This document shows, piece by piece, positions 54,420 to 62,946 of a stretch of DNA of 64,000 nt (positions are counted from its first letter, which is position 1; every line of letters begins with the position of its first letter). A program made the translations under genes and the position numbers. This DNA comes from Acidimicrobiia bacterium. Its GTDB lineage: Bacteria > Actinomycetota > Acidimicrobiia > Spongiisociales > Spongiisociaceae. Location: assembly GCA_009841075.1 (NCBI GenBank), contig VXMP01000068.1:1-64000 (forward strand). The letters run 5' to 3'. The notes beneath the pieces are model-generated. The model was not told the origin of the DNA. It searched no databases and saw only the letters and a program-made list of their open reading frames with translations.

Positions 54420-54980
54420 ATGCGGGTGCTGGTACTTGACAACTACGACAGCTTCACGTTCAACCTGGTCCAATATCTAGGCGAACTCGGTGCCGAACCT
54501 ATCGTGGTCCGTAACGACCAGATGGAAGTACCGGAAGCTGCCCTTATAGAACCGGAGCGCTTGGTTATTTCGCCGGGCCCGGGTCGGCCCGAGCAGGCGG
54601 GCTACACGGAGGACTACATCAAACACTTCGCCGGACAAATACCCGTACTGGGAGTATGTCTAGGACAGGAGGCTATAGTCACCGCCTTCGGTGGCACCAT
54701 AGACCTGGCACCCCGGATCATGCACGGTAAAACCTCCACCATACGTCATGACGGCCGGGGGGTATTCGCCGGGCTGAAAAACCCTTTCCTGGCCACCAGG
54801 TACCACTCCTTGGCAGCCAGTTCTCTTCCTGAGGTGTTGGAGCCATGTGCCTGGAGCGAAGACGACGTGATCCAAGGTATAAGGCATCGGGAGATGTCGG
54901 TCCACGGCGTCCAATTCCATCCGGAAAGTATCCTCACCGACCAGGGAATGGACCTGCTGGGAAACTTCCTGACCGGTTAA
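54420..54980 (+). CDS. pabA: Aminodeoxychorismate/anthranilate synthase glutamine amidotransferase subunit
   Basis: MRVLVLDNYDSFTFNLVQYLGELG, ISPGPGRPEQAG, GVCLGQEAI, VHGVQFHPESI. Confidence 0.92.
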   Translation: MRVLVLDNYDSFTFNLVQYLGELGAEPIVVRNDQMEVPEAALIEPERLVISPGPGRPEQAGYTEDYIKHFAGQIPVLGVCLGQEAIVTAFGGTIDLAPRIMHGKTSTIRHDGRGVFAGLKNPFLATRYHSLAASSLPEVLEPCAWSEDDVIQGIRHREMSVHGVQFHPESILTDQGMDLLGNFLTG

Positions 54981-55028
54981 ACCTCCGCCCCGGTATCAAC
55001 CACCCCTTATCAACAAAACGGCCTGCCC

Positions 55029-55856
55029 CTAACGGACGTGGGTGTAGTGCTCGCCGGTCTCTACATGGTGGGGGTCATCCAGGAAAAGATGGTTGCCCTC
55101 GGCGTTCAACAGGCCCATCCCGTAGGCGGCCGTCATGTGGTGGGCCTGGAAAACCTCGCCGGGAGAACCGGCTACCACTACCCGACCGGACAGGAGCACC
55201 ACATAGTCGGCCTCCCAGGCCTCGCCCAGGTTATGGGTCGCCACGATAACAGTGCACCCGTGGACGAGTTCAGAATGGATGGTGTTGCGGACCGCCTGGG
55301 CAGAAACCACGTCCAAACCGGTTGCAGGCTCGTCCAGTAAAAGGACATCATGATCCTGGGCCAGGCCCTGAGCCAAAAGAACCCGATGGCGTTCCCCTCC
55401 TGACAAACGGGACAGGTGCCGCCTAGCCAGATGGGTGACATTCGTCCTTTCCATGGCCTCGGCCACCCTTTCACGGTCGTCCTTGGTGAGCATACGCAAA
55501 GGGCTTCGATTGGCATAGCGGCCCATGCTTACCACCTCTTGAACGGTTACGGGCAAGGTAGCGTTAACCTTGGTTTCTTGGAGAACATAGGAAGTGCGGT
55601 AGGTACGGCCCTCGCAGCAACCCATCTCCACCTGGCCGGACACAGGATGGATCAATCCGGCGATAGCGTTCAGGAAGGTGGACTTTCCGGCACCGTTGGG
55701 GCCGATCAAAGCGGTGATTTGTCCGGCCGGAATATTCACGCTTGAGGTTTCGAGCACCGTCTTGGCCCCGTAGCGAAACACCGCGTCCTTGATCTTCACC
55801 GCCGGCCCGATAGCCTCCAGGTCTTTATCGGGTATGTGGTCGTTACAGAGCTCCAT
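55029..55856 (-). CDS. ABC transporter ATP-binding protein (metal-type ZnuC/MntB-like)
   Basis: GPNGAGKST, LSRLSGGERHRVLLAQGLAQDHDVLLLDEPATGLD; no adjacent permease. Confidence 0.9.
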   Translation of the reverse strand: MELCNDHIPDKDLEAIGPAVKIKDAVFRYGAKTVLETSSVNIPAGQITALIGPNGAGKSTFLNAIAGLIHPVSGQVEMGCCEGRTYRTSYVLQETKVNATLPVTVQEVVSMGRYANRSPLRMLTKDDRERVAEAMERTNVTHLARRHLSRLSGGERHRVLLAQGLAQDHDVLLLDEPATGLDVVSAQAVRNTIHSELVHGCTVIVATHNLGEAWEADYVVLLSGRVVVAGSPGEVFQAHHMTAAYGMGLLNAEGNHLFLDDPHHVETGEHYTHVR

Positions 55857-55868
55857 TATCCGCCTAGG

Positions 55869-57998
55869 CTACCCGTTGCCGTTCGATTCCGGATCATCAA
55901 CTCCGGCGGAAGTCGTCGACACCGGGGCTTGGCCCAACACCACCAGAACTGTATCGCCCCGCATGGCTTCCTCTCCGGGACCGGGGGCTTGGCGGACAAT
56001 CCGACCCACCAGATCGGGCGAGCCGACCGTAACCCGAGAAATACCTACCTCCATTTGGAACCCGGACTCGGCCAGCAGCAGATCGGCGTTTGCCGGGGTA
56101 AAGCCGGTTAGGTCGGGAACGCTTACCACATCCGGGCCGATTGATTCGAAAAGGGTCACCGAGTTCCCTCGGTCGGTAGTGGTACCGGCGGCCGGCTCGG
56201 TTGAGATAACCAGCCCGATCTCGAAATCGAAGCTGTTTAGCCGGATCACCTGAACCTGCATTCCGGCCTGCTCCAACGCGTCAATGGCTTCGGCTATCGG
56301 CCTGCCGGACAGATCTTCGACGGTGTAGGTGGCACTGCCTTGGGATATCACCAACAGAACATCCCGTCCCGGATTGATATCCGAACCGGCAGGAGGCACT
56401 TGACTGACCACGAAACCCACTTCTACCAGGTCGTCAAAATCCTGGGTGGAGGAAACCTCCAATCCCAGACCTTCGAGAATGCCCTCCGCTCGATCACGGC
56501 TTAGCCCGATCACCTCGGGCATCTCGATAGGCTCCGGGCCGGCCGAAATCACCAATTCGATCGCCGAGCCGGACGAGGCCTGGGTTTCCCCCGAAGGGCT
56601 CTGGCTGATCACCAGGCCTACCCCGACCGTATCGTGGCGGGCGGTGTTGATGGTTACCGAGAATCCTTGCCCTTCTAGTTGGCTGATAGCCCGCTCCTCG
56701 GTAGAGCCAACCACATTAGGAACCTGGATTTGGGCCGGTCCGCTGGAGATAACCATCGTTATAAAGGCGTCCTCCGTGACTGTTCCCACACCCGGTTCCG
56801 TCCTTAAGACCAGCCCTACCGGCGAATCGCTCGCTTCCCGACTCAACCTGACCCGGAAACCTTCCTCCTGCAATACCAGCAGCGCACCTTCCTCGGATAG
56901 ACCATTGACGTCCGGAACCTCCAAGACGACATTCGGCACGGTGGTGGAGGGCGTGGGGTCGTTGGACAAGCTGTTAAGCAGCAGGTAAGCCCCATAGACC
57001 ACTCCGGCGGCCAGGATCAGTGCGGTTAGGACGAACGGCAGTTGGGAAGGTGGTCGGCGGGAGGGTGCCTTGGTCGGGGTAGCCCCCTCCCTGGCACCGG
57101 CCGGTCGGGAGGAGCCGGTCTGAGCCGGGATGGTGCGGGTTGGTGGGCCGGTGGTGGAAAGAGATTGGTGGGAGGGCTTTCCATGCAGAACTACCACCAT
57201 GTCGTGGTGCATATCAGCGGCGTTCTTGTAGCGCTTCTGCGGGTCCTTTTCGAGGGCTTTCATAACGATGTCCTCAAGCTCCAAGGGCACATCCGTGTTA
57301 ATCCGGCTGGGCGGAACCACTTCGGCGGTTACGTGTTGGTAGGCCACCGATACGGCGCTTTCTCCACGAAATGGCGGACGGCCTACCAGCATCTCGTACA
57401 ACACCACCCCCAGGCTGTATACATCAGACCGTTCGTCGGCGGGATCGCCGCTGGCCTGTTCCGGACTGAAATAGGTGGCGGTGCCGATAACCGAACCCGC
57501 CTTGGTGAGACCCTGCGTTGAGCTGCGGGCCCGGGCCACCCCGAAGTCGGTGACCTTGACCGAGCCGTACGTGGTCAGGAGAACGTTGCCGGGCTTGATG
57601 TCGCGGTGGATGACATCGTTGTGATGGGCGGCATCCAAGGCTTTGGCGATCTCGATGGCTATCTCGGTGGCCCGTCGGGGTTGGAGCCGGCCTTCAGAAT
57701 CAAGGATGTCCCGCAGGGATCGGCCTCTTATCAATTCCATGACCATGTAGTAGGTGGAATCTTCTTCACCCCAGTCGTAAACCGAAACGATGTTGGGATG
57801 ACTCAGGTTGGCTACGGCCCGGGCCTCCTTACGGAACCGAGCCACGAAGGTGCCCGCCTCGGCATAACGTTCGTGCAGTATCTTGACGGCCACCTGCCGA
57901 TCAAGCAGACGATCACGGGCCTCGAACACGTCGGACATACCGCCCCTGGCGATCTGGGCGGTCAGCTCGTAACGTCCCAGCGAATTTCGAGATTCCAT
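55869..57998 (-). CDS. pknB: Serine/threonine protein kinase PknB with five PASTA domains
   Basis: GRYELTAQIARGGMSDVFEARDRLLDRQVAVKIL, HRDIKPGNVLL, TM, five PASTA repeats; likely ATG 57998. Confidence 0.95.
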   Translation of the reverse strand: MESRNSLGRYELTAQIARGGMSDVFEARDRLLDRQVAVKILHERYAEAGTFVARFRKEARAVANLSHPNIVSVYDWGEEDSTYYMVMELIRGRSLRDILDSEGRLQPRRATEIAIEIAKALDAAHHNDVIHRDIKPGNVLLTTYGSVKVTDFGVARARSSTQGLTKAGSVIGTATYFSPEQASGDPADERSDVYSLGVVLYEMLVGRPPFRGESAVSVAYQHVTAEVVPPSRINTDVPLELEDIVMKALEKDPQKRYKNAADMHHDMVVVLHGKPSHQSLSTTGPPTRTIPAQTGSSRPAGAREGATPTKAPSRRPPSQLPFVLTALILAAGVVYGAYLLLNSLSNDPTPSTTVPNVVLEVPDVNGLSEEGALLVLQEEGFRVRLSREASDSPVGLVLRTEPGVGTVTEDAFITMVISSGPAQIQVPNVVGSTEERAISQLEGQGFSVTINTARHDTVGVGLVISQSPSGETQASSGSAIELVISAGPEPIEMPEVIGLSRDRAEGILEGLGLEVSSTQDFDDLVEVGFVVSQVPPAGSDINPGRDVLLVISQGSATYTVEDLSGRPIAEAIDALEQAGMQVQVIRLNSFDFEIGLVISTEPAAGTTTDRGNSVTLFESIGPDVVSVPDLTGFTPANADLLLAESGFQMEVGISRVTVGSPDLVGRIVRQAPGPGEEAMRGDTVLVVLGQAPVSTTSAGVDDPESNGNG

Positions 57999-58184
57999 AA
58001 TCTTTAGCCTAAATGCACCGAGGGCGGTTAGAGGGTTGGGGCGGACTTCAGGCCTAAAATCTAGTAGGGAAAAGGAAGTATTGGGTGGAGGTTTATTGGT
58101 GGGAGGCCGGGTGTTATTCGACTCCACGGTGTCTTCTGCCCCCTGTCTCTACCCATAGCCTGGATCCGCCTACGGGAGGGGGGT

Positions 58185-58497
58185 TCAAGGCGCTTCGGGA
58201 ACGTTTTTTTGCGTTCTCGAAATTAGGGGTTGAAAATGTCCCGGACTCATGATACGTAGGGGGTTGCCAAGCACCGAAGGCCGGGTAAAGAGGTAGGTAT
58301 CCCGATCGGATCCCCGGCCCCAAGGGAACATAAACGTATGGAGCGAACAGCCGAACCGCAGTCTCCCGGCTTCAGTCCGGGCATGGTTGACCACGCTCCA
58401 AATCAGGTGGTGTGCGGCGGGGGTGGGGACCCGGCGTAGCCGGGTGAGGTGGGCGGATTTTGCGATTTCTGTGAGTATTTCCCCAGTTTATAGGCGG
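58185..58497 (-). repeat. Dispersed structured intergenic element, copy D
   Basis: Nearly identical to copy A; even the chance ORF MVNHARTEAGRLRFGCSLHTFMF.. is identical in both. Confidence 0.85.
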
Positions 58498-58568
58498 TAT
58501 TATGAGCTTTCTGGTCAGGGTCTTTATCGGTGACGCTGTGAACCTTAGGTTCGGGGAGGCTAACGGGT

Positions 58569-59669
58569 TTAGGCTTCGGCTTCTAGCACACTCACCCAGG
58601 CCCGGAGGACTCTCCGGCCGATTCGGTTCGCCTGGTTTTCGTTTGTGTCTTCGATTACCACCGCCACGATAATGGCCGGATCGGTGGCGGGCATCGACCC
58701 GAAAAACCAGGCCGTGGCCTCCCCGCTTTCGCTCTGGTGCCTCCCCATGCCGCCTTGGCCTTCGAGGGTACCGTGTCCAGAACTTTGGATGGTAAAAGGG
58801 CGGAGGTTCGGGCCGATTTCAAATGTCCCCTCGCTCAGGCTATCTGCTTCGTCAAAAGGTTGGGGTTCGGCAGAGAAGACCTGGTTGGAGTCGGCATCGA
58901 ATATTCTCGCCACCACATAGGGGCGCATTCGAAAGTCGTCGCGGGTAACGGCCGCCACCTTTATGGCGAGGCCGAGAGGCGATGCACGATCAAAGGAATC
59001 GGACGAAACCGTCTCCTCAAGGGTCAGAAAATCCAGGGAAGAAGCCCCGATCGCCCGGTTATAAAGAGGGCGATCCGGATGATCCACCAGCTCGTCCCGG
59101 TATGCTGCCGCTTCGCTTTCCAATAAGGCGTTGGGATTGAAGGACGGCGAACCGGCCATAACCAACACCTGACCGGAGGAAGGCTCCATAGCTACAACCC
59201 CTCCCTTGTGGTCGCCCAATGCCCTTACGGCAGCCGTTTGGATCTCATGGTTTAGGGTCAGCTGAATGGAATAAGGGCGCAGGTCTTCGCCTATTAGGGC
59301 ATCGAAGATTCTTCCCGGGGTCAGGCCGGCGCGGGATCGAAGGGTATCGTCCAAAGCCGCTTCCAGTCCTTGATCTCCGAACCGGCGCGAGGAAAATCCG
59401 ATCAGGTGGGCGTATTCGGTTCCATACAGATACTCGCGCCGGTAGGAATACGAATCAGGTTCCACAGGAACTGATCGGGCCAGCACCGCTGTGTCGGCCG
59501 AAATTATCGTTCCCCTCTCCTGACCGGACTCTTCCCTGGATCGACGGGGGTTTTGATCGTGATCCTGAAGTTGGTCGGCGGCTATGGCCTGCCAGTAGGT
59601 GAGTCCTACCACCAAGGCCAGCACGGCCACCCCGAATACCAGGACGGCCAGTCGGATCGGGCGGTTCAT
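58569..59669 (-). CDS. pbpA: PbpA/FtsI-family penicillin-binding protein homolog, apparently catalytically degenerate
   Basis: TYWQAIAADQLQDHDQNPR, GTIISADTAVLARS, YGTEYAHLIGFSSRRFGDQGLE, GGVVAMEPSSGQVLVMAGSPSFNPN; SxxK, SxN and KTG not found. Confidence 0.88.
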   Translation of the reverse strand: MNRPIRLAVLVFGVAVLALVVGLTYWQAIAADQLQDHDQNPRRSREESGQERGTIISADTAVLARSVPVEPDSYSYRREYLYGTEYAHLIGFSSRRFGDQGLEAALDDTLRSRAGLTPGRIFDALIGEDLRPYSIQLTLNHEIQTAAVRALGDHKGGVVAMEPSSGQVLVMAGSPSFNPNALLESEAAAYRDELVDHPDRPLYNRAIGASSLDFLTLEETVSSDSFDRASPLGLAIKVAAVTRDDFRMRPYVVARIFDADSNQVFSAEPQPFDEADSLSEGTFEIGPNLRPFTIQSSGHGTLEGQGGMGRHQSESGEATAWFFGSMPATDPAIIVAVVIEDTNENQANRIGRRVLRAWVSVLEAEA

Positions 59670-60979
59670 AGGTGTTCCAGGTGGCTGATCCGAGCCAGGA
59701 TCGCCAGTACCATGAAGCCGGCCATATTCAGGGAAAGCCCGTAGGACAAAAAGGGAATAGGTATCGCCGTGGGGGCAAGCCCGATAGCCGCCGCCGCCGA
59801 TAGCGCCAACTGGGACCCCATCAGCAGGGATAAGCCGGCAGCTACCAGCTTATGGAAGATGCCTCGGGCGCGTAAGGCCAGACCGAAACCGGTCAAAACC
59901 ACCAGGGAGTAGGCAACGATCGTCAAGACGGAACCGACCAACCCTAGTTCCTCGCCGATAACCGCAATAACCAGGCTGGTGGTCGCCTCCGGGATCAGAT
60001 GGGGACTACCTTGGCCGAGACCTACACCGAAGATTTCGCCGGAACCGAGGGCGAATAAACCGGGGGCGGAGGAGAAAACCGCATTATCCGGCTGCGACAG
60101 GGGATCGGTCCAGATCAACGAATAACCGTCTGCACCCGCCGACAGAACGATCAACACGACCAGACCGGCCAGGCCCAGTAATCCGCCGATCAGAAAAACC
60201 GGCCGATTCGATGCCAGGTAGGCCATAACCAGGAAAAGCCCCAACAGCAATAGGGCCGTACCAGGATCTCGTAGGGCGGTGCCGACCAGGATAAGCAGCA
60301 GCCCGATGGTCGTGGCAAGGAAGGATCGGCGGGATGGAAAAAACACCGAACTCCACCGAAGCTCGATCAAGGCATCCTGCTGATTGGCTAGAAAGGAGGC
60401 AAACAAAAACACCGCCACCAGCAAGACGATGGGGCCGGGATGAAAAAAGACCGAAGGGTCGGTGCTCCAGGCCACCAGGGTCAGATCGGCATCTACTTCC
60501 AGAACGGGAAGGGCTATTAAACCGAGGGCCAGGAACAAAAGGCCCATGGACAACCGGTGTTGGTTCTCCAGGAACCCGTGCTTGACCTCGACAATCCACA
60601 GCCAGGCCAGGCCGGCGCTTAGCAGCAACCACCAAACCTGACGCCCGGCCTGGTCCTGATCCAGGCGATATATGGTCACAAATCCCAAAGCGGTCAGTAC
60701 CGAAGAGGTGGCAAGTAACAGTGGGGTGGCGGTTGGTGCCCCAACCCAGATTCCGGCCAGCATCAGCCCGAAGGTAATGGCCAAGACCAAAAAGGTGGTT
60801 AAAGCCGGAAGAACCCAACTTTCCTGTTGGGCCAGGTTGACCAGCAGGACACCGAAACCGGCCAGGGCGGCGGCGCTAAGCACATAAAAGGGTTCGAAGG
60901 TCCGGCCTGCTGATCGGCGATAAGGCCACTTCCCCCCTATTGGTTTCAGCCCGGTTCTAAACCGAGAAAGGATAATCAA
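59666..60979 (-). CDS. rodA: SEDS family protein (RodA/FtsW)
   Basis: Multi-TM; DPGTALLLLGLFLVMAY, LFALGSGEIFGVGLGQGSPHLIPEATTSLVIAVIGEELGLVG. Confidence 0.92.
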   Translation of the reverse strand: MIILSRFRTGLKPIGGKWPYRRSAGRTFEPFYVLSAAALAGFGVLLVNLAQQESWVLPALTTFLVLAITFGLMLAGIWVGAPTATPLLLATSSVLTALGFVTIYRLDQDQAGRQVWWLLLSAGLAWLWIVEVKHGFLENQHRLSMGLLFLALGLIALPVLEVDADLTLVAWSTDPSVFFHPGPIVLLVAVFLFASFLANQQDALIELRWSSVFFPSRRSFLATTIGLLLILVGTALRDPGTALLLLGLFLVMAYLASNRPVFLIGGLLGLAGLVVLIVLSAGADGYSLIWTDPLSQPDNAVFSSAPGLFALGSGEIFGVGLGQGSPHLIPEATTSLVIAVIGEELGLVGSVLTIVAYSLVVLTGFGLALRARGIFHKLVAAGLSLLMGSQLALSAAAAIGLAPTAIPIPFLSYGLSLNMAGFMVLAILARISHLEHL

Positions 60980-61698
60980 TCGTCACTTTCGTCAGGCACC
61001 GCCTCCACCAGGACCACCGATATGTTGTCGAGCCCCCCCGCTTCGTTAGCCGCCTCGATCAGTCCCCAGACCGCGTCGGAGAGAACCTCCGACCCGAGTA
61101 TTTCGGCTATATGCTCATCGGTGATCATAGAAGTCAAACCATCCGAGCACAGCAGCAGACGATCCCCTTCCTCCACCTTCCTTTGCAACACGTCAACCTC
61201 TACCGAATCTTCAAGCCCTACGGCCCTGGTGATAATGGCCGACGCCGGATGGATTCGGGCCTGCTCGGGCGTGAGCAGACCGGCCTCAACCTGTTCCTGA
61301 ACCCAGGTGTGATCACGGGTCAGCTGGCGGAACCGGCCCAAATGGAGCCGGTAGGCCCGACTGTCACTGACATGGCCGATGTTGACCGTACCGTCAGACA
61401 ACAGCTCGGCAATCGTAAGGGTGGTACCCATTCCGGCTTTTTCCGGGTCTCTCTCACTCTCTTCCCAGACGGCCTGGTTGGCCGCTTTAATCCGATTTTT
61501 TACGGTTCCTTCGGTAGCGACCGCGGTTTCTATGGCTAAACGGCTGGCTACATCTCCACAAGCGTGCCCCCCTAATCCGTCTGCCACCGCCACCAGAAGC
61601 GGACCATCTTCTCGCCCGTCATGCTCCGGGTAGATCGAGTCCTCGTTATAAGGGCGAACCATTCCTTTATGGGTACCGGATGACCAGACGAACCTCAT
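60976..61698 (-). CDS. pstP: PP2C-family Ser/Thr phosphatase
   Basis: VRPYNEDSIY, LVAVADGLGGHACGDVAS, SDSRAYRL, LLCSDGLTSMI, GLDNISVVLV. Confidence 0.95.
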   Translation of the reverse strand: MRFVWSSGTHKGMVRPYNEDSIYPEHDGREDGPLLVAVADGLGGHACGDVASRLAIETAVATEGTVKNRIKAANQAVWEESERDPEKAGMGTTLTIAELLSDGTVNIGHVSDSRAYRLHLGRFRQLTRDHTWVQEQVEAGLLTPEQARIHPASAIITRAVGLEDSVEVDVLQRKVEEGDRLLLCSDGLTSMITDEHIAEILGSEVLSDAVWGLIEAANEAGGLDNISVVLVEAVPDESDD

Positions 61699-61782: not shown

Positions 61783-62196
61783 TCATCCCACCTCCAGCAC
61801 CGTCTTGCCGATCTGGATGGAATCCCCTTTGGCCAAACCGGTCGGCGACAAAACCCGTTTACCGTTGACATAGGTTCCTACGGCGCTGTCCAGGTCCACC
61901 AGGGTGGTAAGGCCGTCCTGATAGTCAAGTCGGACGTGAAGATCCGAAGCGTAAGGATCGCCGATATGCACATCTGCCCCTTCGCCCCTTCCCAGGATCA
62001 TGGGCGGTTTAACTACGAAGGTCCGTCCGATCTGGGTGTCGCTTCGTACCACAGTAAGTCGGGTGCCTTGACGCCTTCGGGCTGACCAGGGGTTTATTCC
62101 GATCCCCTTACCCAGCGCCGTGGCCGCCTTCCAGATCAAGAGATAGGCCAGGGCAACATAGACGAACTTGAGGGCAACCAGTACCGCACCCGACAT
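61783..62196 (-). CDS. fhaB: FHA domain protein with N-terminal TM (FhaB-like)
   Basis: FVVKPPMILGRGEGADVHIGDPYASDLHVRLDYQDG..DLDSAVGTYVNGKRV. Confidence 0.92.
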   Translation of the reverse strand: MSGAVLVALKFVYVALAYLLIWKAATALGKGIGINPWSARRRQGTRLTVVRSDTQIGRTFVVKPPMILGRGEGADVHIGDPYASDLHVRLDYQDGLTTLVDLDSAVGTYVNGKRVLSPTGLAKGDSIQIGKTVLEVG

Positions 62197-62946
62197 CTAG
62201 CCCTCCAGTCTCAGTTGGGCTTCAACCTTCCCGAAACGGATCGGGGTCCCGATGGGGATGGGCTGCGACCGGGCGGCGGTTTCATGGCCGACCAACGTGC
62301 CGTAGGTTGAACCCAGGTCACGTACCCGAACCTGACCGGCCTCCCACCAGATCAAGGCATGGTCGGGACTTAAGGAATCGTGGTCGATTATTACATCGGC
62401 GTGGCCGGCTCGGCCTACAACCGCTTGGTTGTGGGTGATTTCCAGCGCCTTGGTGCCCAGAAACAGGCAGGCCCAGGCCGGTCGCCTGCCCTTGCGTTCC
62501 GTCGCCCGGATTTCCACCTTGCCCCGCTCGGCGGGCGGGTGCTTTTCGAACCAGACCCGAACCGGGCCTTCCATTCGGCGTCCCCGCTCCATAGACTCGT
62601 CCTCGACCTGGCGCTCCAGTTCCCGCCCGATGGCTCGAAGGTCGGACCGAACGGCCCAATCACGGGGATGGAGCCTCACCGCAAAACGATTGGGTGCCAC
62701 CAAACCGAAGCGGCCCGAGCGGCTGGCCGCATCCGACTCCATCATGATCTGTGAGGCCATTTCGGCGGTGGAGACGGAAAAAACCGCAGTTTGATCCCGC
62801 CTTCCATTGCCTTCATAATGGTTCGCCATTCCCACCTGGTCCAGTCTAGGAGGGTACTGAAAAAATATCCCCGTTGGCCCGCCGACAGGAACGAAATCCC
62901 GGTTAGAAGGAAGCCAAGGGGCCGACCCATCCCCGTTTTTCAACAC
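62197..62946 (-). CDS. fhaA: FHA domain protein with DUF3662-like N-terminus (FhaA-like)
   Basis: PNRFAVRLHPRDWAVRSDLRAIGRELERQV; FHA VVGRAGHADVIIDHDSLSPDHALIWWEAGQVRVRDLGSTYGT. Confidence 0.9.
   Translation of the reverse strand: MLKNGDGSAPWLPSNRDFVPVGGPTGIFFQYPPRLDQVGMANHYEGNGRRDQTAVFSVSTAEMASQIMMESDAASRSGRFGLVAPNRFAVRLHPRDWAVRSDLRAIGRELERQVEDESMERGRRMEGPVRVWFEKHPPAERGKVEIRATERKGRRPAWACLFLGTKALEITHNQAVVGRAGHADVIIDHDSLSPDHALIWWEAGQVRVRDLGSTYGTLVGHETAARSQPIPIGTPIRFGKVEAQLRLEG

Follow-up and report, generated by a model that had tools for sequence, protein, structure and literature searches.

The 64,000-nucleotide stretch analysed here (the window) covers the first 64 kb of contig 47; the genome spans 2.3 Mb and is 96% complete. 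The pstP-pknB locus is conserved throughout Actinobacteria (PMC6554272), and the window contains the actinobacterial gene order pstP-rodA-pbpA-pknB together with FHA genes. The genes of the locus were assigned as follows.

62197..62946, minus strand: fhaA, FhaA-type FHA protein (Pfam FhaA_N and FHA)
61783..62196, minus strand: fhaB, FhaB-type FHA protein (Pfam FHA)
60976..61698, minus strand: pstP, PstP-type PP2C phosphatase (Pfam PP2C_2)
59666..60979, minus strand: third-pair SEDS protein (RodA-type), 437 aa, without the catalytic Asp (Pfam PF01098; alignment to solved RodA/FtsW)
58569..59669, minus strand: third-pair PbpA-type class B PBP, 366 aa (Pfam PBP_dimer_2 and Transpeptidase; alignments)
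55869..58127, minus strand: pknB, PknB-type PASTA kinase (Pfam Pkinase and PASTA)

The SEDS gene overlaps each of its flanking genes, pstP and pbpA, by 4 bp. The named relatives used for comparison are Acidimicrobiia metagenome assemblies, several of which we take to be sponge-derived isolates. Between pbpA and pknB, the window contains approximately 440 bases without a long frame (58128-58568), and pbpA-pknB gaps of variable size were also seen in most other genomes of genus g1, whereas the two genes abut in several intact relatives; pknB may have acquired a promoter of its own. A trpG-type glutamine amidotransferase gene and an ABC transporter ATPase gene (54420-55856 in the window) adjoin pknB in the window's family, and the trpG neighbour of pknB is also present in other families of the order.

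Catalytic residues of the SEDS protein and PbpA

The open frame at 59666-60979 encodes a SEDS protein, generating a hit on FTSW_RODA_SPOVE (PF01098) of 125 bits against a cut-off of 26.4 bits and spanning profile positions 8-353 of 356. A rough Kyte-Doolittle count gave 11 hydrophobic segments, the same number as in intact orthologues, where about ten membrane helices are expected for the fold. When the window protein alone was scored with the NCBIfam equivalog models, it fell below the cut-offs of both rodA_shape (TIGR02210; 90.5 vs 336.7 bits) and ftsW (TIGR02614; 114.7 vs 337.5 bits).

The initial annotation had claimed that this protein carries Ser in place of the catalytic Asp, and the claim held both against solved RodA and FtsW and in sister species. 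In pairwise phmmer alignments, the catalytic Asp of the solved RodA/FtsW chains 8bh1, 25hr, 8tj3, 6bar, and 6bas fell, with no local gap, on the Ser of 'PEATTSLVIAVIGEELG', leaving no Asp at the equivalent position. This residue, Ser335, also shared its column with both RodA D262 and FtsW D297 of E. coli K-12 in an alignment including the two proteins. SEDS frames from all loci were aligned, 155 in total, and the catalytic column contained Asp in 119, another residue in 34, and a gap in two. The 34 non-Asp rows trace to 13 genomes of the window's family, whose third-pair SEDS proteins appear there in repeated copies; both rows with a gap derive from a frame that a contig end interrupts. As non-Asp residues were limited to these third-pair proteins against 119 frames with Asp, the absence of Asp is more than chance. 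The column is intact in the SEDS protein of the sister genus and in the RodA and FtsW of the window's genome. None of the 13 genomes (three genera) of the window's family retained Asp in the third-pair SEDS protein, the substitute being Ser in genus g1 (10 genomes) and G013, Gly in G010, and Arg in G011. A sequencing error is excluded, since the 12 genomes other than that of the window, in three genera, lack the Asp too. G021, in which a text pattern found no motif, was considered as a further Asp-less case and rejected, as its Asp lies in AATDYVF.

Active-site residues identified in mutant screens of SEDS proteins (PMC8765783, PMC10449877) were compared with 29-30 intact orthologues of the same locus. 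The residues of the window protein at the affected positions are as follows.

59975..59977, minus strand: Ser335 (codon AGC, read 59977-59975) at the catalytic Asp position in extracellular loop 4 (alignments)
60440..60442, minus strand: His180 at RodA Q111/FtsW Q147, Gln in every aligned active SEDS protein (alignment)
60263..60265, minus strand: Pro239 at RodA L160/FtsW L198 (alignment)
60122..60124, minus strand: Tyr286 at RodA R210/FtsW R246 (alignment), the Arg being lost in the window and two other genomes
59765..59767, minus strand: Ala405 at FtsW G371 (alignment)
59735..59737, minus strand: Leu415 at FtsW G381/RodA G343 in the SYGG motif (alignment)

Four of these positions, Q111/Q147, L160/L198, G371, and G381/G343, were invariant in the intact orthologues; all are lost in the window, and they are lost in 11, 10, 11, and 10 of the 13 genomes, respectively. 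R210/R246 is a proposed contact for the pyrophosphate of lipid II (PMC10449877). W102, D159, P257, and most of S-Y-G of the SYGG motif were kept. Overall, intact orthologues share 133 conserved positions; 81 of these, including D159, W102, P257, and EELG, were kept in most of the 13 proteins, and 52 were not. No new invariant acidic residue was found near loop 4 among the 13 third-pair SEDS proteins; therefore, a simple replacement of the catalytic base was not seen.

The adjacent PbpA had been described as degenerate as well, which the alignments bore out: it has a truncated transpeptidase domain with no aligned SxxK, SxN, or KTG motif. The transmembrane helix (residues 5-23) and the pedestal (PBP_dimer_2, 52 bits), a non-catalytic part that binds the partner, are kept. 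The Transpeptidase profile generated a hit of 45 bits that was split into two pieces, with a jump from profile position about 35 to 160.

58988..58995, minus strand: deletion junction of PbpA (approximate), where about 110 residues including SxN are missing relative to intact orthologues
59277..59594, minus strand: pedestal of PbpA, residues ~26-131 (dN/dS 0.062 vs 0.054-0.114 in intact orthologues)

In all 13 genomes, the same as those with the Asp-less SEDS protein, PbpA has a deletion that removes the SxN region, is without the KTG Lys, and has no aligned SxxK; a local SLSK or SLPK string occurs in PbpA of four species, but without SxN or KTG. Among the matches listed from a sample of 296 genomes of the class, continuous matches over the shortened PbpA came from the window's family only, and those in other families stopped near residue 235 or sooner. 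The catalytic loss in the pair is near certain. A possible second degenerate lineage, in which the PbpA match ended near residue 177 (G158, G187, G219, G256, G271, and G281), was rejected because Asp (in TSDW), SxxK, SxN, and KTG are all kept. Genus g34 of a related family (L171-L176) carries a strongly diverged third pair, with the loop TSDW, all catalytic motifs kept, and a PbpA of 461-466 aa that is altered in the middle.

Origin of the pair and selection acting on it

A tree of 50 SEDS proteins placed the 13 Asp-less ones in one clade (support 100/99), sister to the protein of G014 from genus g4, which carries a SEDS protein with Asp (AATDFIFAAVAEELG) and an intact PbpA. One state change on the tree accounts for the loss of Asp; as all 13 fall in one clade, a single ancestral loss suffices. 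The residues for both activities were lost in the common ancestor of the three genera. Long branches in the SEDS tree, including the one leading to the window's protein, are a warning, and the placement matches the genome taxonomy. The sister with an intact pair is one genus only, represented by an assembly that is 78% complete and in which the SEDS gene is split across two contigs. The end of one G014 contig (L051, 3433-4020) translates to SFPTRRSSDL and looks like leftover sequencing adaptor. Two genomes of the related family f8, G028 and G034, yielded no more than two SEDS matches, and their PbpA match was weak, the latter genome being a single contig that is 96% complete; from these matches, the third pair can apparently be lost outright.

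A search for a second, intact pair elsewhere in the window's genome, as initially suggested, turned up both a RodA-PBP2 and an FtsW-bPBP pair. On contig 7, approximately 4 kb from MreB, RodA with Asp neighbours an intact PBP2-type gene. FtsW with Asp lies on contig 36, where approximately 4 kb separates it from an intact class B PBP. An intact class A PBP is on contig 59. Cell-wall synthesis is covered by these intact synthases, and catalytic loss in the third pair is therefore tolerable.

Selection was estimated as Nei-Gojobori dN/dS, a counting method, in nine g1 genomes with bootstrap 95% intervals. The ratio was 0.194 (0.154-0.245) for the third-pair SEDS protein and 0.159 (0.125-0.198) for the third-pair PbpA, compared with 0.154 for PknB, 0.240 for PstP, 0.088 for active RodA, 0.099 for PBP2, and 0.109 for FtsW. 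The values for the dead pair are similar to that of PknB and higher than those of active RodA and PBP2. The frames of the pair were open in all 13 genomes over approximately 800 codons. Both genes are under purifying selection and are not free-running relics.

Constraint differed along the two proteins. The C-terminal remnant of the PbpA transpeptidase domain is relaxed approximately fourfold (dN/dS 0.276 vs 0.063-0.108 in intact orthologues). The SEDS protein is relaxed in all regions, namely loop 2 (0.267 vs 0.032-0.096), loop 4 (0.170 vs 0.014-0.055), and the last helices (0.115 vs 0.034-0.043), and in each region it evolves at roughly two to five times the rate of intact orthologues. A dS near 1 lowers the ratio in some comparison groups, and groups with similar dS (f5a, f3) agree. 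The constraint on the PbpA pedestal indirectly suggests that the SEDS protein and PbpA may still associate.

No fhaA was found in ten of the 13 dead-pair genomes (G001-G009 and G011, that is, nine of the ten g1 genomes plus G011), and the gene, with its FhaA_N domain, is retained in the window, G010, G013, and the sister G014. The regulatory part of the locus is remodelled together with the dead pair.

Possible roles of the catalytically degenerate pair

We favour, with moderate confidence, a SEDS-bPBP complex maintained as a pseudoenzyme. That such a pair is retained had been proposed initially and agrees with the finding that both members degenerated together and both are under purifying selection. 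The dead pair is present in all 13 genomes, although fhaA was not found in ten of them and some related genomes appear to be without the third pair, which we count in favour of a maintained complex. Control by PknB, PstP, and FHA proteins, a further part of the initial proposal, is putative and suggested by the gene order; FHA control is not a constant part because fhaA was not found in most of these genomes.

The pair could instead be a slowly eroding, dispensable relic, kept through translational coupling to pstP and a shared operon with pknB, where out-of-frame damage would be polar and the genes would be kept for now for this reason. We consider this rather unlikely. Accelerated evolution in all SEDS regions and the long window branch would fit a relic, as would the window protein having lost more positions than its relatives (R210, E183, and K186), the failure to find fhaA of the same locus in ten genomes, and the related-family genomes that appear to be without the third pair altogether. 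However, dN/dS is 0.16-0.19, far from 1, and even the upper 95% bounds stay under 0.25; coupling to pstP would not explain such low values. Moreover, the constraint differs between domains and is undiminished in the pedestal, and all 13 pairs have stayed open, though in-frame deletion is possible and occurred once.

The fully constrained pedestal, which is the activating part, and the retention of much of the SEDS fold signature (81 of 133 positions) would also be consistent with an altered yet active enzyme or transporter that uses another residue, donor, or acceptor, or moves lipid without polymerising it, with PbpA as an activator only. This seems improbable, as the substitute residue varies (Ser, Gly, Arg) with no new invariant acidic residue in the loop, the losses extend to several independent positions of the active site, and RodA D262A has no in vitro activity (PMC10449877). 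That the genomes of the window's family are probably all metagenome assemblies might point to an error in assembly, alignment, or gene calling. We assign practically no weight to this explanation, which the agreement among independent assemblies refutes: thirteen genomes agree, with three different substitutes for Asp and the same PbpA deletion, and the alignments to solved structures contain no local gap.

For a maintained pseudoenzyme complex, a regulatory or scaffolding role is probable. The third pair has lost the residues for glycan polymerisation (SEDS) and transpeptidation (PbpA) while the other synthases stayed intact, and the two proteins would still fold and associate via the pedestal and the SEDS fold, acting without catalysis. 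In active pairs, the pedestal contacts SEDS loop 4 (PMC8765783). The most likely action would be regulation through binding of lipid II or of elongasome or divisome partners, so that the dead pair would compete with, or position, the active RodA-PBP2 or FtsW pair. The FtsW mutant D297A is dominant negative and retains binding to FtsI and lipid II (PMC8765783); a natural dead SEDS protein could therefore keep lipid II or shared partners from active synthases, or position them. The PknB/PstP switch encoded alongside might govern the dead pair, as the operon suggests. As a plausible but tentative proposal, the natural pseudoenzyme complex of the three genera could be a PknB/PstP-controlled brake or scaffold that acts on active synthases via lipid II or shared partners.

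SEDS-bPBP pairs are regarded as enzymes. A natural Asp-less SEDS protein was not found in the accessible parts of the literature on SEDS proteins, RodA/FtsW, and PBPs, including dead, inactive, or pseudoenzyme forms; as this coverage excludes most subscription journals and preprints, it is weak evidence of novelty. A pair still selected after losing both activities would indicate a separable non-catalytic function of the complex, single out the pedestal as the part that matters, and offer a route to asking what the third pair of the actinobacterial pstP-pknB locus does besides making peptidoglycan. It would also be a natural counterpart to the dominant-negative laboratory mutants. FtsW D297A (PMC8765783) and RodA D262A (PMC10449877) lost the same Asp as the window's SEDS protein; they are engineered single changes in essential enzymes, whereas the present case is natural and fixed in three genera, and the window protein, unlike them, has further active-site losses and a degenerate partner. 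Lmo0421 of Listeria (PMC6624303), a non-canonical FtsW/RodA homologue, is likewise an additional SEDS paralogue that belongs to neither the RodA nor the FtsW group; the available part of that report contains no Asp loss, and its locus and regulation differ from those of the window. The RodA-PbpA pair of the Mycobacterium pstP-pknB locus (PMC6554272) shares the order FHA-FHA-pstP-rodA-pbpA-pknB and the PBP_dimer_2 pedestal; unlike that pair, the window pair is without catalytic residues in both members and the transpeptidase domain of its PbpA is shorter by about 110 residues. The best solved matches of the window PbpA include class B PBPs named Penicillin-binding protein A.
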